The notes beneath the pieces are model-generated. The model saw only the letters and a program-made list of their open reading frames with translations, searched no databases and was not told where the DNA came from. The position numbers and the translations under genes were made by a program. Of a stretch of 64,000 bases of DNA, positions 1,204 to 62,685 are shown in pieces. Origin of the DNA: Thamnidium elegans (taxonomy: Eukaryota; Mucoromycota; Mucoromycetes; Mucorales; Mucoraceae); the NCBI GenBank assembly GCA_025201345.1, contig JAIXMG010000011.1, positions 62,001-126,000 of the forward strand. Direction: 5' to 3'. Positions within the stretch are counted from its first letter, which is position 1, and every line of letters begins with the position of its first letter.

Positions 1204-3176
1204 CTATTGTGTGTCAGGCGTAGCAGGTTTTGATTTTTTTACGACATCCATTTCTTGAAGCACACGAAGCCATTCTACACCAGCTTCTTTTCGCATAGCT
1301 TCGATCTTTCTTCTAAACGCATCGGAAGATCTACGAGTAGATTCACTAGTAGATTCAATAGGCGATTCATCTTCATTTGCAGCTTTTTTACTACGTCTTG
1401 ATCGAACAGAAGCAGCTCTACGTGCCATCACTTGTTCTTGTTGAACTGCATCCTCTAACTCTGCCAATCGATGTACATATTTACCCGATTTTGTTTCTTC
1501 ATCATCCGATAAAATAGGTGCTTCATTTCTATTTTCAACTCTACCTAATCGAATAATACGTTTATTTCCTTTTGTCTTTGTCCTTGCTAATTTGGTTTTA
1601 GGGATAATAGTTGGACTTTCAGCTATAGTAGGGTCTTCTGAATGAACTGCGTTTGGCCATTTCGATGTAGGATGTACGGATTCTTCTACAATAGCAGCTG
1701 AAGGTGTATTATGATGATCTATATTAGTTTGTATACGACGTTTTTCTGTAAATGTAGGTTTTGTTCCGTCTAATTCAATATCTTGATCACTCTTTTTAAA
1801 CAAGTTAAATATCTCTACTCTATAATCAGGCTATATATATATATATATATTTGTATATATCGTTTATATATATATATATATTATTATTATTATTTTTTAG
1901 ATGCATATTATATATAAAATAAACATAATAATACCTGTATTTGTGTAAAAGGGTTACCTTCAACCCATATATCTTGTATATTTGGTAAATCAGTTAATCT
2001 ACCAATTTCAGCAGCGTCTTCAATTCGATTATCTCTTACGTCCAACCTTTCTAACGCATATAACCTATCCAAACCAGCCAACAGAGTTAATCTATTTCCT
2101 CTTAGATCTAATTCTTGTATATTTCCCAAGACAGTATTTATACCGGTAGTAAAAGAAATCATATTATGAGACAAATTTAAGCTGTACAAGTTATAAAGCG
2201 TAGCTAAAGCAGAAGGTATATCAATTAATAAATTGGAAGACAAGTTCAAGTGAGTTAAAGAGCGTAACATGTTTGTTGGTTCTGCATCCAAAGTTGTTAA
2301 ACTGTTATCAGCCAATGAAAGCATCTTTAATTGAGACCATTCGACATCGTCACCAATGACATCCAATGCATTATCAACCTGTCCATGTTTAATGACCAAA
2401 CTCACCAAAGTTCCTTTTAATTCAGACCAGTTTGATATCAAGTTTGGAGGTATATGATTTAATTCCAAAAATGCCAGGCTTTTAAATGTATGTAATGGTA
2501 ATGATATGGTAACGGGTGTTTCATATCCTTTAATTGTAGTCTTTGTAACACCATTCATGTGTAATTTGAGTGCCGATATCTTGCTGAAGTAACGGTGTAT
2601 ATAAACAATATCTTCGTGTAATGGTCTCTCTGGTTGTTTTCGATGACTGTCCTTTTGCCATAACTGCCAACCTGTCGATAAAGATAATGTTGACATGACT
2701 GAACCAACTGAAGATACAATAGAAGGTGCTTGTCCTATTGAACTGGTTGTTTCAGTTTCGACAAGACCATTCTCTGGTACAGGTAGATGAGTATTTTCTA
2801 AACCTAAATATTCAAATTGAACCAACAAAAAATAAAGGTATTGAAAGTCAAGAGTTAAACTTGAACGTAGTGGCATATAAGGTGTATTGGAAAGACAGGT
2901 GGCATTAGGTGATGTCGCAGATAATAAAGACATGTAAGGAATCTGGTACCCATATAAAGAAGTAGGTCTAGAGTCTATACTACTTTCTTTACTACTAGTT
3001 GTATTGCTAGTACGTGAAGAAGACCATAAAGAAGACACGGCTTTTAATATACCACCAGGTTCTTTTACATCTTCTTCTATAATAGTTTGAGATGAATATA
3101 AAAGTCGGTTTTGATTCGCTTCCAAGTAATGTCTTAATGTTCTAACAAATTGTTCCCCAGCAATAGGAGATACCAT
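1204..3176 (-). CDS. Leucine-rich repeat protein, STK11IP/LIP1-like
   Basis: Two exons, 1935-3176 and 1204-1830, give 622 aa. Residues about 230-414 hold consecutive leucine-rich repeats (LTHLNLSSNLL, YSLNLSHNMI, IQELDLRGNRL, LERLDVRDNRI, then DIWVEGNPF). Order and spacing resemble the N-terminal half of animal STK11IP (LIP1), which binds the LKB1 kinase and has a similar divergent first repeat (FKSLAFLELNHIPP). The N-terminal 200 residues are Ser/Thr-rich. After the intron, PDYRVEIFNLF continues the post-LRR cap, followed by a charged, low-complexity, partly helical tail. The first downstream AG at 1819-1820 would force a stop; the AG before CCTGATTAT restores the cap, so I chose 1830. Binding to an LKB1-type kinase is inference. 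It is divergent from the acyltransferase gene, with 1.3 kb between them. Confidence 0.8.
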
Positions 3177-4477
3177 CTTGGCTTTTTGTTATAAAAAAAA
3201 AAGAGAGAAGGAGAAGGAGGGAATATATAAAGTATGGAGAAAAGAAAAAATTAATACAACACCAACAAAAAAAAAAAAACTTTTTGGTGTCCTATAATAC
3301 ATCTAAACTGAACGTCCCGGAACTTGAATCAAATGTTTATTATTTATCTCTCACTCTTTCTCTGGTCTTTTCTTTCTTTACGCTAAATAAGTTTGAAGTG
3401 ACTACATCGTCATGTAATAACAAACATCTTTATCGGGGAAAAATAGTTGTTTATTTTAGAAGAAAAAAAAAGGAGGGTCCCCCATACGTAGGCTTCTTCT
3501 TTAGCTTTTAAATTAAATTATATTCTACCACATTGTTCTTTTATAACGAAAAAGAGGGGTGTATCTCATACATAAGTCATACAATTGTCAGTTGATATAT
3601 ATCGACTACCTCACTACTAACATGTGGCATCCTTCAACTCTTTTTTTTTTTTTTTTCTTAAAAATGAAAACTAAAAAAGGTAAAAAAAAAAAAGATGATG
3701 GAACTATCTTGTAATTACAGGCATGAAAGGCACCCCCACCCCTTTTTTATTTTCTTTTTTTCTTAACGCGTAATAAACTTGACATAATAACTTCCAGGTA
3801 CCGTCTGAATAACCTTGTTATAATGGCTGTTAAATATAGATGAATCAATGTATAATAAGCTCAATGATAAAAAGTAGCAGAAACTTGCAGGTTCTGTACT
3901 AGAGTAAACCAAAATAGATCATACTTGTTTTGTGATAGAGTAGATAATGATGATACAACAACAACAATAACAACAACAACAACAACAAAAAAGAAGGATA
4001 TATTCTTTTTATGTCGTAAAGAAGATTTTGTTAGCATTGCATGATCGTAATATTATATAAAGAAATGTGTATAAATATAGAGATTTATGATTAATACAAA
4101 ATAAACGGTACATAATACTTTTATGCAAAAAAAAGAAAAAAAAAGTTCGCGTTATATTTGAATTAAACTTGTTTAAGAAGAAGAAATTTGGTTAGATTGA
4201 CTGACTTTTAACAAAAACGATTTTCATACTTGAAACGTCTAGTCCTTTTTTTTTTGGGTCAAAGCACAAACACATACACATCGGTAGCCATACCGAGCTT
4301 TTCAATTGTAATAGAAAAGAAACAATAAAAACACGTGTTTTACAGTGTTAAAAAGGAGAAGGTGTGTGACCCTTCTTTTTTTTTAAGGTTAAAACTGAGT
4401 GCAAGTTATTTTATATTTTATTTTTTTTCTCCACATTTCTTTTTCCCTTTTCTATTATTATTTTTCTTTTTGTAACC
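3177..4477. other. Divergent intergenic region
   Basis: 1.3 kb between two divergent start codons. It holds homopolymer A and T runs and a CAA-type microsatellite at about 3955-3990. No open frame looks coding. It probably carries both promoters. Confidence 0.7.
4329..4340. promoter_or_regulatory. Palindromic CACGTG E-box upstream of the acyltransferase
   Basis: The 12-bp palindrome AAACACGTGTTT lies about 140 nt before the ATG at 4478. CACGTG is the classic bHLH binding core. A bHLH factor acting on this glycerolipid gene is plausible but inferred. Confidence 0.4.
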
Positions 4478-19903: not shown

Positions 19904-21153
19904 TTATTTTATGCTTGATAATTCTAATGTCCATGTTGTATTTATTGGTGAAGGAGATAATTGTTGTTCAGGAGTATTTGGGCCAGTGGAATCTAAAAGT
20001 GATATATCATCTTGTTGGTTATTATTTGGTTCTGTTGCTTTACCGATTTGATGAGGATCTAGGCCTAGATCATTCAATACTACTGGTAGTGCACCCATAC
20101 TAAAATATACTATTAGCCTTATACATACAAATATATTGTATTTTCTTACCGAGAATAAAACATTTGTAATCGAAGTCTAATATTTTCCGCATATAAATCT
20201 TGTACAGTTCTATCTGCGTATAATCCCAATTGGATGTTTCTTATAAATACAAAAAATTCACATACTGCAACTAGTCTGTCTCTGCAAAATTGGTCTATCG
20301 GTAACCAATTTTCATTTTCGTCCAGTTTAAACCGATAATTTAATGGTGTCGATTGACTTAAATTTCCACATGCCGAGCATGAATTTAATAGTACATTAGC
20401 CGAAGAAAATCTTTCCCATAATGGTTTTTGTATTTGTTGTATTTGTTGTTGCTGGTTACCATGGTTATTAATTTCTATAAAACAAGCTTGCCTAGATAAA
20501 TAACCAATCATTTTTTTTATTGATAATTTAGACTGTAAACCAAATCTTAGACACGGCTCAATATCTTCAGTTAAACAATGCTTCATAAAATTAGTTTGAT
20601 TTAACTTTTTTAATGATTGCAAGTTCTTTGAAGCCAAAATATATTCACGAAAGGAATCTAATTGTATCTCATCAATTGAATCACATACAGGTAATGTACT
20701 TGTGATATTATCATGTTGTATACCATGTAATTCTTCTAAATCCATCTGAGCGCGGGTATTATGAGAAGTATTTATGATTCGGCTCTTTACTAGTTGTTGT
20801 TGTTCGGCATCATCTCTTGTTAATCTAAGCCTCAATTCATGTAATTGTTCTCTTTCTGCCAAGAGTTGTTCATGAGTTTGCGCCAATTCGTTTTCTACTT
20901 GCCAGCGGGCTCTCTTTTCAATTGATACCATAGCATTGGCTTCTTCAAATAAGTTTCGGCTAAAGTCTTCTAATTCATGCTCAACCAGGTCTTTTTCATG
21001 TTGAATGTTACCAACTCGTTCTATTTCCGCTACATATTTTTGATTTAATGTTTGCAGGTCAAGTTCTAGTCTTTGTAATTGATGATCTTTTGTTTGTAAT
21101 TCTTGTCGTAACAAAAGAATAGTCTCATCTGAATGACAATAATGACAACTCAT
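19904..21153 (-). CDS. SEC2: Sec2/Rabin8-type guanine nucleotide exchange factor for Rab GTPases
   Basis: Two exons, 20150-21153 and 19904-20099, give 399 aa. The first 140 residues are a long coiled coil with the Sec2 signature DFSRNLFEEANAMVSIEKRA, the segment that contacts the Rab (Sec4/Rab8) switch regions. Sec2 activates Sec4 on secretory vesicles during polarised exocytosis, and hyphal growth depends on this route in other fungi. The second half holds a Cys pair (LNSCSACGN) and helices near FCRDRLVAVCEFFVFIRNIQ, as in Rabin8/GRAB homologues. An extra CHYC sits at the N-terminus. The end is Ser/Pro/Gln-rich. The protein is shorter than yeast Sec2 (759 aa) and close to animal Rabin8 in length. 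Divergent from ataxin-10, with 197 nt between starts. Confidence 0.87.
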
Positions 21154-21286
21154 AGTAAGAAAAAAAAAGTGATAAAGTAAAAGAGAGAAGAAAGAGTAAA
21201 AATATTAAAGTGTATTATATATGTAATTAAATTTTGAAGAAAGGAGCAACTAAAATGACGTCCGAATTAAAAAACCGATAAGAAAC

Positions 21287-31723: not shown

Positions 31724-34700
31724 TTACTGGTCTTTAAGATGAGAAATCCACACTGCAATTGATTCTGTAGACATTGGAAGTGTATCTAATTTCTCAATCC
31801 TTCCTTCCTCTTTAGACTCTATTTGAACTCTAGTTAAGAATGATTTATATTCTTGAATAATGCTTGTCTATATACACATTGTTTTGTTAGTAACTATGCT
31901 TTTTGAACGAATTATGCGTTTTATTTACCTCGATTGGCTTCATCAAAATTTGTTCCATTTTATTATCATTGATATAATCTCGTAATTTCTTGCTTACAAA
32001 CTTTATTCTTTCTTCTACTGCTTCCCTAAACTGATCAATCGCCTGCTGTACATCCCCTATATATATATTTTTTTTTACTCGTTAGAAAAGAAAACAAAGC
32101 TCTATTTCTTCTTCTTTGAAACCTACTTGAACTCAATTTTTGTATTGCTGATGAATCGTTACCCATTTTAGTTACAACTGCTGCTGGTAGGATTGCCGAT
32201 AACTATTAAAAATGCTGATTAAAAGACATACATAACCTTCATAAGTTTGAGTAATACCTTGATTAAGAAAGCCGTCAAAGGTTCTACACAGCTATTAACA
32301 CAATTATTAATAAATTCCTCGCATACTCTTTTAATCTGATAGTCTATTTCTCTTCTAGAATCTAGGCTGACTTCAACTACGCGTGGCATTCCACGCTGAG
32401 CTAATCCAATTAACGCATTTGGGTTAAACATGAGTGATTTTTGTTGTTGTAACGATGATAATGAACCTAAAATAAATATTAGTTAATTTTATATATTATA
32501 AATTAAGGGGCTTTACCTGTAACATGCGAAAAATCTAGAGTTTTACCAGCATGAACTAAATTTGCCTCAAATGGAGCAAGTTGTTCTTTTAAAACCAATA
32601 AATTTTTAATTAAAAATAATTCACCATCAAGACGAGACTGATACCATGATGTTAGTAAATCCATTTTTTTTTTTTTTCCCTCGGTTTTATAAAAAATACC
32701 TTTAACTTTGTCACAGTTTCACTTGCTTGTTGTAATGATTCGTTGCATAACGAAACTGCCTCCTGTGCTAAATCCTCAAACACACCAGTCTAGTATAATA
32801 TATTCGTCAAGTTAAAAAAAAAAAAGCAATATAAACAAAAACAAAAAAAGTACCTGTACGCATCGGTAAAGTTTAGATAGGATCCAAAGTGTCTTTTGTA
32901 ACGTAGGAAACCAGCCATAGTGATTAGATTCTATATTTGATCTAGTGGATTGGATAGAATGAGTATCAGAATCATCTTCAACGTCTAGAGTTGCCGTTGC
33001 TGTGGCATCTAACACAACTGATGATTTGGTCTTTTCTTGCCCAACTTGTTTATTAACAGTGTTTTCAAAATCTTGTGGTTTAGGTTGGTAGTTCTGGATA
33101 TCACTGTGTATAAACATTTGAGAACGAAATACTAATCGACCCTGTGCATCTTCCATCACGTTCTGTATAAGGTGACCAAACTTGACCTCGTTTTTATCTT
33201 CAACAACACCAATAGCTTTTTTAAAATAAAAAAAGGGTAAGTGATGTATATATCTTTTTATGTATGCACATAGTTATTTCTTTACCGAAATCGTTTTCAT
33301 CTTGCATTACATACATCAAAAATACGTTACATAATTCTGAAAGTGTAGTGATATCATTCTCATGAATAATACGTGGCCGAAGATAATCATACAAGTAACT
33401 CGTTAATAAATCCAAATAATTGCTGCAACAAAAAATAAGTATTTATTAAATATATATAACAATAACTTACTATAGTTCTTGCTCTCCAGATTTTTGAAAA
33501 AAGTTGTAAAACAAATTAAATTCGTCAGAGCATAAACTCATCATGTATGCACATCCATTCTTAGCCTGTAAACAGTTTAATATTAATAACAATCATCATT
33601 CATCTTATACATACTTTACAAATCCTAATAAATCCTTATCATTGGGTCCAAGTTGTTGAATTTTTTTAGATATCAAAGGACCCAGTAACTGTTGCCTCGT
33701 TTGAAAATAAACTTGCAACATATCTTGGTATAGAGACTGATATTCTTTATGTCCTTGACATCTTTTTTCGACTTGTACAGTTAACGATTTTATTGTTGAT
33801 GCGATCGTTTTAAACTTTACATAATACATGGTTATTTGCTTGCCCAAAGTTGCGTCCTTGGTATTCACTTGTTTGTATACTTCATACCCTAAACTTTTAA
33901 TTGTAGATACCACGTACATCTTGATTAATGTGATGCCTTTGGTCATACATTGTCTGAAACGCATCAAGTATAATTCAGAGTCACGATACATGTGATGATC
34001 TTGCATATACTGAATACACTCATCCAGCGTATTCAACATGGTGATAAATTCAGGATTTACACAAATATCGTCACCAGGCGAATTGAATAATTTGGCTATC
34101 GGTTCCAATCGATTAAAATAAGCCAATCGTTCCGACAACCCTTCCGCAAGACCAGTTAGACGATCTTGTTCCGTCAACAACATCTCGCAAGTTGTCTGTA
34201 TCGATCTTGTTTGCAAATCTACAAATGAATAATCGTTTTCCAGATCCTCGAATAGTTGACACGTAACTTGCAGGTCGCTTAAAAACTCATTGCACGCTTC
34301 TTGGTACTGTTGCACCATACTCAAATGGTTTCGATACACATCTTCTTGTCCTTTTTCCATTTCGCTTTCCATTAAAGAATACCAATCGAAAAACTCCTGT
34401 AACGTCTCGATCGCTTTTTTGCTGCCAATCGCATCCGCTACATTCTTTTCCGCCGCCGAATCCGCTGCCGTTGCTTCAGCTAGTAAATTTGCTGTAGATA
34501 AAGTGTGCTTTAACGTACCTAAAAGTCGAGATGAAAGTACATGAGCGTTAAGTGGACTGGAGCTTGGTAAAATATCTGGTGTTCCAGGTGATATTCCTAA
34601 CGAAGGTGAACCTAATAATTTATCTCCCAAATACTAATAATACATCAATAATATAATACAACAACAACAAAAAAAGACCCTACCCAGTTTGATGGTAAAG

Positions 34701-35940: not shown

Positions 35941-37500
35941 ATGAGTTTAAAAGGTTTACACTTTTCTTATAACAAGTTTAAAACAGATGTGCAATCACAG
36001 ATTGCAAAGAATAACCCTATGCAAAAGCAAGACACTAAAAGCTTGTCCATGTGGATTTTCCAGGAACGCAGTGATCTTGCCACGATGCGTACTATGGCCT
36101 ATCAGCGTAAGGAAACCGTAAAGGCTTTAAAGGATTGGGTAAAAGAAGAAATTGAAGAAGAAAAGATTGAAAATGGACGTGATTTAGAAGACCTTGTAGG
36201 CGATAAGTTGACTAGATTACTTGATAAACAAATTGAAGTTGAACAAGAGTATGCCAGTAAGTATATTATATACGACCCCCCAAAACTAATATACTAATAC
36301 TTTTGTCCCCAGACAAGTTTCAACAGTATCGTCATGCTGTAAAATCTATTAGAGACAGAGAAGAAAAGCTGTCAGATCAAAGAGAAAAGAAGCGTTCACT
36401 TCAATCGCGTATTGCCAACTTGAACAAAACGAGCCCTAGATCACCCAAGTTGATGGAGTTTCAAAAGGAGCTGAAATCATTGGCTCATGATACACATGAA
36501 AGTGAAATGGATTTAGCCGATTTTAAAAGATTTGCACTAAAAGAAGCGTTTTATCTTCGATTCAATGCTATGAATGAATACGCTGAAAAGACTGCTTTAA
36601 TTGCTGGTTTCGGTAAATATTTGACCGATTTAATTCAAATTGAACCTACTCCTGCTACCCAACAACATCGTAGTCCTTATGATAAAGGTCCTGAAGCCGC
36701 CGTTATCTTTGCTGATGCAATGAACGCTTTAGAAAACTGGAAACCTATGGCTGAAGATGAAAGACCTACGCTTGCAAATAACACCGAATTAATTGGTAAA
36801 GGAAAAGAACCAGAAGAGAATAAACCTTCACCACCTCAACTTCCTCCTCGCAGACCCACAATGGAAGCTGAACTTGATCAACCTACTGGTTATACAGCTG
36901 ATGAAGTATCTCAAGTTACTGGTGATTTAAAGACAACAAATGAAAATGAAATTGACCTTGATAAAATTGATTTGTATGATGCTCCTCCACCTGCTTATGA
37001 TGATCCACCACCACCTATTCAACATCATTCTTCTCCTTTAAATTCTGATCAACATCTTCAAGAAAGTTATTCATTTAGTTCACCTTATCAAACAAACGCT
37101 AATTTACCTCCTGCTCCTCAACCTCAACATCAACAATATAACCATCAAGTATTTGAATCTCCTGCTCCTATGCACCAGCAAGCATATGGTTCACCTTACC
37201 CACAACATAACCATTATTTACACCAAGAAAGTACCTATTATGATCCTACCAGTATGATGTATAATACTCAAGTAAACTATCAACAGTTGTATCGTCAAGT
37301 AAGTCAACGTAGACAACCTGCTGCCTACAGACCTTATGCTGAATTTCAACAACAATTTAATAATAACAACGACGACGGAAATAATAACTTGAGACAAAAA
37401 ATAGATGCTGGTGGGTTCCGTATCCCTGCACCTGCACCAACTCATGATAGTGCTGAAGATGAAAAAGAGCAGTTAGCTCAGTATTACAAACAACAAGATG

Positions 37501-37542
<42 letters not shown>

Positions 37543-37853
37543 ATCATCAGTATAGTCAATATGATAACTCTCAGTATGATCAAGGTTATCCTCCATCACA
37601 ATATGGAGGCTCATATTATAACGGTTCTCAATACGCTGGATCTCAGTATGGTGGCTCACAATACGGTGGTCTTGCTAGCTCTCAAGAACAACAACAAACT
37701 CCCACTCAACAGAACCAACAGTTACAATCTCAAAGTTCTATCCAAAAGCCAACATTATCCCCCCAACCATCTACTATTCATCAACAACCAGAACAAGCTC
37801 CACAAGAAGTACATAAACCAAATTATGAACAAAAGATTCAAGAAGAAGAGTAG
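35941..37853 (+). CDS. PIL1: Eisosome core protein PIL1/LSP1 with long glutamine-rich tail
   Basis: Two exons, 35941-36256 and 36313-37853, give 618 aa. The first 235 residues are the PIL1 BAR domain that shapes plasma-membrane furrows: WIFQERSDLATMRTMAYQRK, NKFQQYRHAVKSIRDREEKL, SPRSPKLMEFQKELKSL, YAEKTALIAGFGKYLTDLI, AVIFADAMNALENWKPM. The yeast proteins are about 340 aa; here an extra 380-residue tail follows. It is Pro-rich (LPPRRP, PPPAYDDPPPP), then Gln/Tyr-rich with about 15 consecutive Gln encoded by a pure CAA tract (37501-37541) and repeats of the form GSQYGGSQYGG. Such a tail could phase-separate or bind SH3/WW proteins (inference). A TATATATAAAA box lies about 70 nt upstream of the ATG. 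Confidence 0.93.
37501..37541 (+). repeat. CAA microsatellite coding for polyglutamine
   Basis: Uninterrupted CAA triplets inside the PIL1 open frame, likely length-variable between strains. Confidence 0.9.
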
Positions 37854-49761: not shown

Positions 49762-51605
49762 TTAAAAGTTGTCAAAATTACCATAAGACATTGTCTTTTT
49801 CTCTTGTGATAATATCTTTTGTTTCTTTTGTGATACTCCAATTTCTTCTTCATAAGCAACATCCTTTTTTTCTTCTGGCTTTCTTTTACCAGTTTCATTC
49901 ATATATTTACCAACTTGCACATCTTCTTTTTTACTTACATTAGGTCCAAACCAACCCATTCTATCTTGCTTTTCTCTCTTCAATCTAGCTTCTTCATCTT
50001 CTGCATCCGCATTAGCTTCATGAGCAAGTTTCTTTTGTAATCGAGTTTGATACTCCTCAAACGGATCCACAAATACTTGAATTTGTTTAATACGAATATC
50101 CCTTTCTGGTTTATCCTTTTTATCCACCGGAATTGCTTCTAATTTCTTTAATACGTCCATACCACCTACTACTTTACCAAACACAGTATGTTGACCATCC
50201 AATTGAGGAGCTGGTGCATATGTAATAAAGCTAAAAAAAATTTTTATCAAGATTGTTATATCATTTGTCATCTACTAAATATATATAGATATTTATACTT
50301 ACAATTGTGAATTATTGGTATCTTTACCTTTGTTGGCCATACTAAGTATACCACGCGCATTATGTTGTAAAGTAGTTTTAATTTCATCAGGAAAATCATG
50401 TTTCCAAATAGACTCTCCTCCTTTACCAGTACCTGTAGGATCACCACCTTGAATCTATATATATATATGTATATAAAGTATGTCAGCTAAATTATATAAT
50501 AGTAAAAAAAAATAAAAAAATGTCATACCATAAATTTACGGATGTTTCTATGGAAAAGTACATTATTGTAATATCCAGTCTTTGCAAGTTGAACAAAATT
50601 GTGACATGTACGTGGTACCTAGAACATCACAGTTGTTAATTACCCGTTTCACTAATTTTTTATTTTTTTATTTTTTTTATATGTGTATACCTTGTCACTG
50701 AATAATTCTACATTAATATTACCATAATTTGTCATGATACGAGCATATGATTTCGTCTTTATACGCTTATACATAAAATCGTCTTCATCAATTAAAGCTC
50801 TAGTACTAGCAGAATAAGGGTTTAAAGCAGTAGATGTAAATGATTCTGCAGCTGCACCTGTTGTATAATGTGCAGCATTATAAGGTAAATTTGCCTTCTT
50901 TTGGTGAAATGTCGTAGGCACCTTTTCCTTGACCTCTTCCACTTCTAAATTCTTTTTTGCTAATTCGTCAAACACTTTTTTAGTATTTCCCATACCAGCT
51001 ACATTAATGTTATTTGTTGGCTTTCTCTTTTCTAATTCCTCTGCAACATTGACTACTTTTTTATTGGTCTTGACGTAGTCAAACTTTGACATGTCGCGTT
51101 TCTCTAGATTATGAGGATCTTGAATCATGATGATATCCTTTCTTGTGAACGGCTCATCTGTAATTAAATCTCGCATATGTTTGGCCTTGATATTCAACTT
51201 TTCGATAGTTTCAAAAGCAAATACATTGCCTGTCGTCTTGATGGCTGCAATAGCTGTATGATCTGAAAATACTTTGAACGTCACCGGGCAGTAGAACTCG
51301 TCCTTTTCGTTTTTGCTGAAATGTAACTTTATCAAGTCCTTTGTTTGAAGTTTTTCTCCCGTAACAGGATTCGTACCGTATTTCTTAATGTAAGGGATAA
51401 TGTAGACTAGATCAAAGATAATGCCGTCAGGTGTACAGACTGGATGTTCAAACGGTTGAAGAGATAATGAACAACAATAGAAGGGTAATCTTTTAAAACC
51501 AGATGTTTTACGTTGACCGGTGATACCAGCTGAAGCTGAATGTTGACCTACTTCTCCACTCCATTCTGAATGAGTAATATATAATTTATCTGTCCATTTA
51601 CCCAT
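49762..51605 (-). CDS. PPIL2: U-box cyclophilin PPIL2 (Cyp60)
   Basis: Four exons, 50691-51605, 50529-50618, 50303-50454, 49762-50230, give 541 aa (human 520). Nuclear, spliceosome-associated protein with a ubiquitin-ligase U-box and a peptidyl-prolyl isomerase domain. The U-box covers about 38-115: [50 protein letters not shown]. The cyclophilin domain starts near 290: [80 protein letters not shown] and the QFFIT block contain the catalytic Arg and Phe. The C-terminus is Lys/Glu-rich with a likely nuclear signal. In fungi PPIL2 homologues such as S. pombe cyp8 occur, while budding yeast lacks one. Introns are phase 0, 0 and 2. Confidence 0.95.
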
Positions 51606-51980
51606 TTTTATATATGCTACAAAAAAGAAAAGGAAAAAAAAAAGTGTTTTTTTTGTTTTTGATTTTTAAACCCTATTAATTTGTTTTTAAATTCAGCGAA
51701 AAAAAAGGAAAATGCACAAGTCTATGACGACAAAATAACAATCAAACACATATATACGTGGCAAAAATATATATCCATATCCATATAAAAAAGGGAGGAA
51801 ACAGAGTGTAACAAGACATTAAAAGTTGTATGCGCAGCATAAAGTGAGTTTGCCATTTAAAGACTTTTTATCGTGACGGCCTGTTTAATGCCTTTTAAAA
51901 AAAAAATGCCTAAATTTCATTCCGCATCCTCCCCTTTTTTTTCTCTCTCTTTCTTTTTCTTTTTTTTTTATATATATATA
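51606..51980. other. Divergent promoter region
   Basis: 375 nt between PPIL2 and the DDHD lipase starts. TATA-rich (51750-51790 and 51970-51980), A and T runs. No further motif recognised. Confidence 0.6.
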
Positions 51981-58241: not shown

Positions 58242-61200
58242 ATGAGCTTTCGTACATGTCCTGAAATAGAATTAGATATGTCAGCGTCACAAACCGGCAA
58301 AACTCTAGCCGATGAAAATGCAAGTGATCTTATCGACAGCCATAATATTAAAGGTGAAGACGTTATACTACTAGACATATCCATAAATAAAGAATGGATG
58401 GCTTACGTTACAATCAAACATGAAGATATTGATGGTACTTCGAATCTGGAAAATAACGAGGTACATCGTACGTATTTAACCAGGCGCCGGTTTACAGCCG
58501 TTAATGCAGAGAACAGTGAAGACAGAATTACGCTAAAAGAAAATAAACAAAAATACATTACCAACGACGAATATTTTAGAATCGATATCACAAATACTAT
58601 AAAAAGTACCAACCGCAACCACAGCAAATTTTTGTCTATTTCTCGAGATGGAAAGTACATTGCGTTATCTTTTTATTCGGAAACTTCACGTTTCAGTTAC
58701 TACGAGAAAGGTCGAAAATACAATAAATGTTTTATTTTTGAAGCTGGTATTGGTAGAATTGACCTGAAGTCTTCACTGAATTTCAACGGGCGTGCTATTT
58801 TCTTGAATAGTGAAGAAGTTTCCTTGATATATGCCGACGCGTATACTTTTAGGTATGGTAATTTATCTGACATTTCTTCTGATAGGACAGTGTTTGATTT
58901 GAGTATCCTCGGTCCAGGATCTTTCAATGAGTCACCTGTATTTGATGAATTATATATTCGAAACTCTGCATGGCTTGATTTTTCGGAGGAAAATAACGAT
59001 ATGAAAAAAGCTGTAACGTTTACTAGAAATGTTCGTCATGATATTATAACTACGCCTTACCTGGATGTCACTCGTGCTTGGTCACTTACTGAAAACGGTG
59101 TACGCTTAACTTCAATTTGGATCCCAGGATTACATATTATGGCGTTTTCGAAAGATTATAAATTTACTGCTGCTTATGTCGAAGGTGCTCGATCGATACA
59201 TATTTACAATGTCAAAAGTAGTTTATTAGCCTATCAATTAAAATCACAAGAAAGTGGCCTTGTTGATAATTTTGAAGTTTCTCATATTCGATTTTGCTAC
59301 AGCGGTAGATATGTGGCTATGTCTGGGTGGGAAGGTAACGAAGTAGTTTTTGAAATATGGCATCTCGAATCAGAAAGGTCTATATATAAAATAAGCCGAA
59401 ACGTAGGTGAAAGAGCTGCTAATTTTGACGCTACATCGAAACAACTAAAGGTATTTGAGCCTTTTGTCACAAAAGTATACAATCGTAACAGCGAAAAATG
59501 TTTGGTGGGATTCTACATGTCCAACAACAGCAACCATCTTAAAACCAATTTTCTAGAATTAAAAATGGATTCTGTCTGTGAACCCATCAGTATAATAAGG
59601 GAGGATTCCAACGGCCCTTGTTATATGTTTGACAACACTGCATGGGATACCTCACTGAGCAGCGAATTAGTCAAACGCAAATATATTAATATTGGAGAAG
59701 AAAAACTTTTAGTCCGTTTTGATGAGTATACAGTTCAACTTTGGAAAATAGAATCTGACTATACCGCTGGGCAGCTGATAGGTGATGGGGATGAACTTCT
59801 TTATATAAGAGCTTACAAAGGACCATATTATGGACGCGATTATTCTTTCAGGGATACTTGGAAAATTTGTAATTATAACAGTATAAAATTTATTGGAGGT
59901 AATGCTTCAGGCAGGATTTTGGTTAATATAATGAAAGCTTTAAATGAGGACGGTTCCCCAAACTATAATTTCAAAGATTACCACACGGAAGAAATATTTT
60001 TACCATTATGTGGAGTCGGTAACCAAGAAAAATTTGATGGACACAAATTGGAAAGCGCTTGTCAGGCTTTACATTTCCTTCGCGAAATATACGGTTTCAA
60101 TTCTGTTACAGAAGCCTGTTATAAGGTTTGAGAAAAACATATATTTATCCATACGCCTAAATTAATTTTGTTTTAGGACGATTTAAACAAGCTACGCAGC
60201 AAAACCGAGGAGCTAGTTAAATCAAGTGTAGAAAGTATTGATTCTACGTCTAGTTACTTCTCAAATATCACCGGAAGTCGAGAATATATTATTAAATTAA
60301 TCATAGCTAAAAATATTTCGATTGCTATTTTTAGTCACCACAGGCCTTTATCTGAATTAAAGGAAAAATATACTGACGAATATCTTCAAGAGGATATATT
60401 GGATTGGTGTAATCATAATAAAATCTTCCAATGGTCTCAGTCACTTTTGAAAAAGGCAATCAACGTTAAAGCATTATTTCACCTAGATAATACAACGTAT
60501 GATGCTACCACGATAGATAATATCCCAGATGATGTAAACAAAGAAGTTATGATATCGTATCGGAGCTCATCAAAAAAAAAAAAAAACTATTCAAAAAAGG
60601 ATAGTACTAGAACTATAGCCACGAATGAAAATGTTTTAACTGTGCTAATTGAAAAAGCAAGTAACGACCTATTCAATTTACTTTTTAATCGCATTTTGTT
60701 AGATTCTAAAGAATTAGGTCCAGGCTGCCTCTTGTCATTAATGGATGCTTTGGTGTTTCTTCAAGAAGGAAACTCTGGTAAGCAAAATAAAATCGAAAAT
60801 TTATGTCACATGTAATAACCTCGTGGTACCTAGACCTTTTATTGTCAAGCAGTAAAAAATTATCACTCTTAGATTTTGGACCTCAGCAATTGGGTCTGTC
60901 AGTTCGAGAATTTTACAATTATTTCAAATCTTGTTCAGTTAGTCAAAAAGACGTTTTCGGTGATATAAATATGAGTCCGTACTCCATACCCGAAGAGCTT
61001 AAGAAGGTCACTAATTTTGAATGGAAAAAAATAAATCGCAAGAGAGATAAATTTTATTCAGCAGGTGGTTCATTTTTTCGTACTATAAAGCTTCTTATAA
61101 AGCTTTATAAATTGAAATATCTTATCAATGTTTCGACAATGGAGTCAAAAGCAGGTTTACGGATCAACGTTGTCCCTCTCCCGCTTTTTTGCTCGTATAA

Positions 61201-62685
61201 TAACTTTGTCGAAGGTTTATCCGAAAGCGCGTTTACTCGAATTGCATCAAACCAACGCACTAACAATATTTTTCGACAAGGCGGTACTTTTGAAGCTTTA
61301 TTAAATTACAAATGGAAAACATTCGCTAAAAGAAAATTTGCTATGATCTGTTTTATACATGCCTTATACTACGTTAGTTATTGTACTGGTGTTTTGTTTT
61401 CTCGAGTATTGTATGTTAAAGGACCAGAAAATGAACTAGATATGAAACATCCAGGTCATCTCGCTTCTTTGGCTATAATGGGACTTTCTCTCTCCATACT
61501 TATTATACAGGAATTTCGTCAATTTCTTAATACTATGAACAAAATGAGCTACCTTGCATCAGGTTACAATTGGGTGGATATAGCTGCATTTGGCTTTCCG
61601 ATATTTACTGTTTTTCAGTCTTTGCTAGAATGGGATCACTTTGTAGGTCACTATAAAATTGATGATTCAACAGTAACTAATAATGTATTATATTTATAAA
61701 TAGGCCGAGGTCTGTAGTATTACTACTTTAATTTTATGGTCCCATAGTATATTGAGACTTCGGGCGATCCCTTCTTTTGTAAGTGTAGTTATATTTGAAA
61801 ATAAATTTTATGCAACATTAAGCGGTCTAATAGAATTTCAAACTTAGGGTGTTACGCTGGATATCATAATTCAATTGTTTAGAAATGTTTTTGCTACAAT
61901 TTTTATTATGTTTCTTGTTATTATAGCGTTTACTATGTCATTTGTTGTGCTATTGCTCTCCAAAGAAAACGAATATTTTCAAGACAATTTCGAGGGAAGT
62001 TTTACTAGTGGCACTATTACAGCCCATGGGCTTATAAATACTGCTAATGTAAGTACGGATAATGGCTTTCGGAACTGGTTCAAAGCGTTTTCAAAGGCGT
62101 GGCTATTTATTTACGGAGTATGGGACCCGGTAACTGAAGGAGATGTCGGTGACAATATGATGGTTATGGCACTATGTATTTTATTTTCATTCGTTACGAT
62201 GTTTATTTTCTCCAATATGATTGTGTAAGTTACATATACTCTACAATAAGTAAAAATTAGCTTCTCACTTATATTTTTTTTTATATGAAGCGCACTTATG
62301 TCAAACCCAATTGAAGAAGTACGAAGAAACGGAAAGAAGGCTTGGTAAGTCAATGTAGCTATATATTTTTTAGTTATTGGGAATTACTGACGCTTGCATA
62401 TTTTTAATTTTCTCTTTAGGATTAGCCATTTTGCGGGTAAATATATCTATGCCTTTATCTCTATTGAAATACTTATTATTTTTTAATTAATTAGCTGTCA
62501 TATCAGAGATAGAGATTTTGTGGTGTTCCGATGCTGAAAAACGTAGCAGAATAAATAATCCTGTGTATATTTATTATAAATCAGAGCAAGAAACTAACAT
62601 TGCTCATAGAAAAAATCTTTTAAAAGAAACAGAAGATCTTAATGAAAAACTGGGTATCACTAATGAAAAAAATATGGACGTTTAG
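58242..62685 (+). CDS. TRP-like cation channel with WD40-like N-terminal half
   Basis: Eight exons, 58242-60125, 60177-60777, 60834-61642, 61704-61778, 61848-62224, 62291-62344, 62420-62436 (17 nt), 62495-62685, give 1335 aa with all phases consistent. Residues 1-630 contain WD40-like blades: FLSISRDGKYIALSF, LHIMAFSKDYKFTAAYV, SIHIYNVKSSLLAY, IRFCYSGRYVAMSGWE. A helical linker follows. From about 995 there are six membrane segments: FAMICFIHALYYVSYCTGVL, LASLAIMGLSLSILIIQEF, VDIAAFGFPIFTVFQSL, a TRP-type S4 (ILWSHSILRLRAIPSFG), S5 (VFATIFIMFLVIIAFTMSFV), a pore loop (FKAFSKAWLFIYGVWDP) and S6 (MALCILFSFVTMFIFSNMIV followed by ALMSN). S6 NMIVALM matches TRP NLLIALM. The apparent stops at 60813, 61697 and 61845 all fall in introns. 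Ligand and ion are unknown. Confidence 0.85.

Follow-up and report, generated by a model that had tools for sequence, protein, structure and literature searches.

A predicted β-propeller joined to a TRPV-like channel in the mould Thamnidium elegans

Gene structure and reading frame

The DNA analysed here, referred to as the window, is a stretch of 64,000 nucleotides from Thamnidium elegans (C3:62001-126000 of a genome, G000, of 34.1 Mb in 64 contigs). On its forward strand, at 58242..62685, lies a gene which in the preferred model has 8 exons, separated by 7 introns of 51-75 bases, and encodes a protein of 1335 amino acids, the length given in the initial annotation. The exons are at 58242-60125, 60177-60777, 60834-61642, 61704-61778, 61848-62224, 62291-62344, 62420-62436 and 62495-62685. 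All features of the gene described below are on the forward strand.

Several other open frames in the window carry recognisable domains. On the reverse strand there is a leucine-rich repeat frame (1908-3188, Pfam LRR_4), a frame with Sec2p and Rabin8-like C-terminal domains, typed as a Rab exchange factor (20146-21204), a piece of the Golgi complex subunit COG3 (33605-34633), and a U-box frame with weaker matches to Rtf2 and a NOSIP-type zinc finger (50652-51665). A Pil1 eisosome piece is on the forward strand (36261-37853).

Combinations of GT..AG sites, listed only within hand-chosen donor and acceptor ranges around the seven suspected introns, gave 24 in-frame gene models of 1318-1338 amino acids, all with the ATG at 58242 and the stop at 62683-62685. 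The acceptor at 60833 was preferred to that at 60872 because it retains a DLLLSSSKK-like segment, which is found in most of the homologues that cover this region. In another strain of T. elegans the same protein is annotated as a single gene (P0001, INT48_007256), with 1204 of 1211 aligned residues identical to the window protein. The fusion of a propeller half and a channel half in one uninterrupted spliced frame, as first proposed, is supported. The annotated model of P0001 skips the DLLLSSSKK-like segment, and it also omits a lysine stretch of exon 2 that contains a run of 15 A (60572-60586). Since that stretch is omitted, a homopolymer error or alternative splicing is possible there. Three BDF21DRAFT proteins of T. 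elegans (P0002, P0014 and P0009) appeared in a search yielding 20 homologues, and none of the rows was the window protein as annotated in that strain; this annotation may lack the window gene or split it.

Propeller, linker and channel

The N-terminal half is predicted to be a seven-bladed β-propeller of WD40 type, presumably cytosolic, at residues 38-449 (58353..59588). Structure prediction for exon 1 (628 residues) gave a propeller with moderate confidence (pLDDT 72), with the predicted four-stranded blades arranged in a ring. A fold of 7 to 8 blades had been anticipated. The prediction provides seven matched blades and extra β strands at residues 450-599 (59589..60038), which are seen in the predicted secondary structure and whose arrangement is not settled by the model. 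The folds closest to it are those of PROPPINs, THO and further propellers of scaffold type. The Pfam scan found no match to curated propeller models in the window protein; in 8 of 20 homologues such models (THOC3) did match, all far under the cut-off, and for P0008 the precomputed Pfam column holds both Ion_trans and propeller models. PROPPINs carry the phosphoinositide motif L/F-RRG. The pattern [LF]RRG is absent from the window protein and from residues 1-700 of 34 homologues, two of which (P0010 and P0017) have RRG with neither L nor F before it. Membership of the PROPPIN family was therefore rejected, the fold matching and the motif being missing.

The propeller is followed by a linker at residues 600-960 (60039..61228), split by introns, which is helical where modelled and lies where TRPV channels have their ankyrin domain. 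Its conserved start is already encoded within exon 1, where the model has a helix at residues 600-621. The full-length structural model is that of a homologue and not of the window protein; in the model of homologue P0027, residues 537-821 are mostly helices. At 60279..60284 a linker segment that begins with TLAMLA in most relatives is missing from the window gene and from P0001. All 31 other homologues compared (P0002-P0032) have a segment at this place, variable in a few. A pattern search for it matched 8 of the 9 paralogues in the same genome, L014 being the exception; the LAMLSS form, which occurs in P0007, would escape this pattern. The window copy may be functionally altered.

It had been suggested that the propeller stands in place of the ankyrin repeats of animal TRPs. 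As stated, this is not supported: although the sequence tests gave no ankyrin signal, the P0027 model has a helical domain at the TRPV ankyrin position. Pfam scans of the window protein and the homologues reported no ankyrin families, and an ankyrin profile test against a typed consensus ankyrin protein gave no match (a weak test, with a one-column alignment). TRPV6 (5wo6) aligns with the P0027 model over 532-1140, with 440 residues at 8.6 Å. Given this structural overlap with the helical region, the linker may yet be ankyrin-like.

The channel half agrees with the membrane segments, pore loop and TRP-like S6 originally described. The pre-S1 tryptophan W989, S1 and S2 are at 61313..61525, assigned by hydropathy scan and alignment. 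S3, S4 and the S4-S5 linker with G1124 follow at 61565..61886, split by two introns and placed by alignment and the Ion_trans match, and S5 is at 61887..61964, from the hydropathy scan and coordinates. The pore helix and a candidate filter, GVWD, which aligns with the TRPV filter GMGD, are at 62073..62129. S6 (62154..62300, split by an intron) was placed by alignment and ends in NMIVALM, residues 1246-1252; the TRP helix with W1267 occupies 62301..62523, split by two introns. The C-terminal part (62557..62682) consists of NPVYIYYK and a predicted coil, for which the homologue model has a strand at 1135-1141 and a helix at 1142-1183. Pfam Ion_trans matches the window protein with 27.7 bits (cut-off 25). 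A simple hydropathy scan found S1, S2, S3, S5 and S6 and did not find S4, which is assigned because of the Ion_trans match and the homologue model. The G and D of the filter are conserved in all 32 homologues with residues there, the TRP-helix tryptophan in all 27 that have a residue at that position, and from the S6 asparagine to this tryptophan the alignment with 7lqy is gapless. Together, the Ion_trans match, the TRPV match and the homologue model describe a six-segment cation channel domain with a TRP helix, as in group I TRP channels.

Searches against the PDB sharpen the original assignment as a TRP-type channel, in that TRPV chains are the best matches. For the window part the best was 7lqy (Osm-9-like TRP channel 1; E 7.5e-5), running from pre-S1 to past the TRP helix; 51 of the 54 matches were TRPV-named or 7lqy, and the rest were Inactive, Yvc1 (E 0.022) and a phage-type tail protein. 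All 29 matches of P0012 were TRPV-named or 7lqy (TRPV1 at 7e-6), as were the best 60 of 62 for P0018 (TRPV1 at 1.9e-8). For a Glomeromycotina protein TRPV1 was best at 0.03, which is not significant.

PMC9242649 gives a 12-residue TRP fingerprint (W F F/Y G F/Y F/Y F/Y N L I A W), of which 95% of TRPs have at least 9, with a score of 8 for both TRPY and the non-TRP domain I of TPC1. The window protein scores 8, below 9 and equal to TPC1 domain I, with misses at H441, W638, I678 and V679 (rat TRPV1 numbering); the family majority scores 9 of 12. A score of 8 is within the range of divergent TRPs and is not decisive, since the TPC domain also has 8. In the same numbering the paper's TRPY consensus has N434 and Y697. 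The homologues have F434 (31/31) and W697 (27/27) where the residue is present, corresponding to F997 and W1267 of the window protein, and these are not the TRPY residues. The Pfam family YVC1_C (PF23317) is precomputed for several homologues, for example P0018. It was not reported in the window protein, but the same scan also missed P0018; a search of the T. elegans genome with YVC1_C gave no match, but neither did the control genomes. Yvc1 was rejected as the closest relative on the order of the PDB matches and on residues 434 and 697. By sequence comparison, the channel is closest to TRPV and not to Yvc1.

Homologues and copies in the genome

Two homologue searches yielded 20 and 32 proteins, 34 in all. 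They come from seven Mucorales genera (Thamnidium, Mucor, Helicostylum, Parasitella, Backusella, Rhizopus and Pilobolus), with P0024 and two Glomeromycotina proteins in addition. Both halves were counted as covered where each of four 100-residue propeller blocks had at least 50 aligned residues and both channel blocks had at least 40. This was so for 29 of the 32 non-Glomeromycotina homologues (P0014, P0016 and P0028 fell short). The two Glomeromycotina proteins also pass, yet at 9-36% identity per block, which is too weak to rely on. With a Funneliformis protein as query, 138 proteins from several species and strains were retrieved, and we take the named rows among the 120 matches listed to be of Glomeromycotina genera (Rhizophagus, Funneliformis and others). 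A whole-set profile comparison between Mucorales and Glomeromycotina aligned the channel part alone. Compared by thirds, the channel aligned at P 1.1e-36. A section of the N-terminal region (146 columns) and the beginning of the linker (47 columns) each aligned at P 1.9e-4 with an hhalign probability of 47%; reversed, shuffled or mismatched controls gave P 0.13-0.65 (six N-terminal) and 0.35-0.88 (two linker). It is likely that there is a modest co-linearity outside the channel. The suggestion that the architecture is typical of Mucoromycota can be upheld as far as many Mucorales and a co-linear but distant Glomeromycotina family.

Within the same genome, 49 matches fell into 15 groups, of which 10 are loci with both halves. 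Five of these are on C3, four of them forming an array (G000:C3:160413-182422) some 36 kb downstream from the gene described here. Three more make up a second cluster (G000:C23:383373-402268), and C11 and C56 have one each. The other five groups comprise three channel fragments and two sets of pieces on C23, lying between the loci of the cluster, which look like one broken copy. Elsewhere in the genome, Ion_trans matches in series give two further loci the look of multi-domain cation channel genes (G000:C4:740720-744980, reverse strand, and C9:187067-191505, forward strand), which we take to be of the Cch1 type.

Over exon 1 the window gene is 54% identical to its nearest paralogue (C23:383373), with dN/dS 0.30 at a dS of 1.2, which is near saturation. 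Nine pairs of paralogues, which share genes and are not independent, were compared in the propeller exon and in exon 3, which consists of the variable end of the linker and S1-S3. The propeller exon has the greater dN/dS in all nine, and among the three most alike array copies its value is 0.71-0.89 against 0.36-0.63 in exon 3. However, the exons hardly differ in amino-acid identity; the propeller exon has the larger dN in 7/9 pairs, usually by a small margin, and the smaller dS in 8/9, so that faster change of the propeller is not supported. In the three alike copies N changes are in excess in two windows, residues 310-349 with 25 N against 1 S and residues 550-589 with 35 N against 3 S, and in deficit at 510-549 (4 N, 10 S). 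These changes are few and are totals of three pairs that are not independent; the windows of N excess may reflect gene conversion or relaxed constraint.

Interpretation and comparison with known systems

On the basis of these observations we lean, with some reserve, towards the view that the gene encodes a subunit of a TRPV-like cation channel, with a cytosolic WD40-type propeller ahead of a helical linker, and that the genome has about ten genes of this kind. The propeller-TRP architecture itself is very probably correct, and the TRPV-like pore can be assigned with good confidence. By analogy with TRP biology, four subunits would form the pore and the N-terminus would be cytosolic. A protein or small ligand might then bind the propeller, and its signal might reach the S6 gate by way of the linker and the TRP helix; opening of the gate would let in Ca2+ or other cations. 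Regulation of the pore through binding at the cytosolic propeller, as either sensing or scaffolding, seems by this analogy most likely. The narrower proposal that the propeller is a ligand-binding regulator is put forward tentatively, at rather less than even confidence, in part because faster propeller change was not upheld; dN is about the same in the propeller and channel exons and gives no sign of ligand binding. More speculatively, these proteins could be intracellular recognition channels, in which the propeller reads molecules inside the cell (for example partner, self or intruder proteins) and directly opens a TRPV-type Ca2+ pore. We consider this very unlikely, and the more so as the propeller does not clearly outpace the channel exon in protein change.

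The most serious competitor is that the propeller is a platform for assembly, trafficking or membrane targeting, and that stretch, lipids or Ca2+ gate the channel. Many WD40 propellers act in this way, the nearest folds are of scaffold type, and IFT-A subunits rank first in Foldseek for the full-length homologue model. Little speaks against it: the higher dN/dS of the propeller arises mainly from the lower dS, and the local N excess in two stretches of the propeller exon rests on few changes. It is a real possibility, if a doubtful one. The missing linker segment could also mean that the family is real and the window copy is a decaying paralogue that has lost its function. This is rather unlikely given a frame that is open across seven introns, the same form in two strains, and the dN/dS of exon 1 relative to the nearest paralogue, near saturation as that comparison is.

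The remaining alternatives concern the identity of the gene itself. If the protein were a usual Yvc1/TRPY vacuolar channel of fungi whose N-terminus had gone unrecognised, this would account for YVC1_C in several homologues and for the presence of Yvc1 in the PDB search, but TRPV chains are the best matches of the window part, P0012, P0018 and the Glomeromycotina protein, and residues 434 and 697 are unlike the TRPY consensus. The lack of a YVC1_C report in the window protein says little, as the scan missed P0018 too. We regard this explanation as improbable. The exon-intron model was read from DNA and homologues alone, and two adjacent genes might have been joined by wrong splicing. This is hardly credible, since the same order of halves recurs in 29/32 non-Glomeromycotina homologues and at ten loci of the same genome, and exon 1 itself carries the conserved start of the linker.

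If the favoured reading of a propeller-headed, TRPV-like family in many copies is true, it would alter the view of Ca2+ entry and sensing in moulds. For TRP biophysics it would be a natural head-swap, with a related pore behind another cytosolic domain. Should the Glomeromycotina relatives share the propeller head, it would be relevant to mycorrhizal symbiosis, and were the recognition reading true, the expansion of the family in Mucoromycota would be a repertoire of Ca2+-signalling receptors.

Databases already name members of the family 'ion transport domain-containing'. Pkd2-like proteins are further fungal TRP channels. The text of a fungal TRP survey, which sorts these channels into TrpY1-like, Trp2 and Trp3, contains neither the word propeller nor WD40 (PMC3410928), in keeping with the original statement that classical fungal TRPs lack a propeller. 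PMC8778642 reports that the TRP-CC class has expanded in Neocallimastigomycota and Glomeromycotina, and WD40 and propeller were not found in its main text. In PMC5068960, on Chlamydomonas, the WD40 protein is FAP16, and the TRP channel is a separate protein. A propeller-TRP fusion was not announced in the titles and beginnings of abstracts searched, a scope that leaves out most subscription journals. As far as searched, the combination is implicit in annotation and not described in the literature.

Among known systems, the PROPPINs (Atg18, Hsv2, WIPI) differ from the T. elegans propeller in that the latter is fused to a channel and lacks [LF]RRG. The Glomeromycotina 'ion transport domain-containing' family aligns in the channel and weakly in part of the N-terminal region and the linker start, and is distant in sequence. 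The fungal Yvc1/TRPY, Trp2 and Trp3 groups are likewise fungal cation channels of six or more segments, and YVC1_C is found in some homologues; the sequence match to Yvc1/TRPY is weaker than that to TRPV, and the family departs from TRPY at two fingerprint residues. Animal TRPV channels (TRPV1-6, Nanchung/Inactive), known for sensing heat and irritants, share S1-S6, the pre-S1 tryptophan, the TRP helix with its tryptophan, the S6 end N..(I/V)ALM and the C-terminal strand, and TRPV6 superimposes on the homologue model with 300 residues at 3.5 Å. Unlike them, the T. elegans channel belongs to a fungus, has the filter GVWD and no ankyrin repeats by sequence, and carries a predicted β-propeller at its N-terminus.
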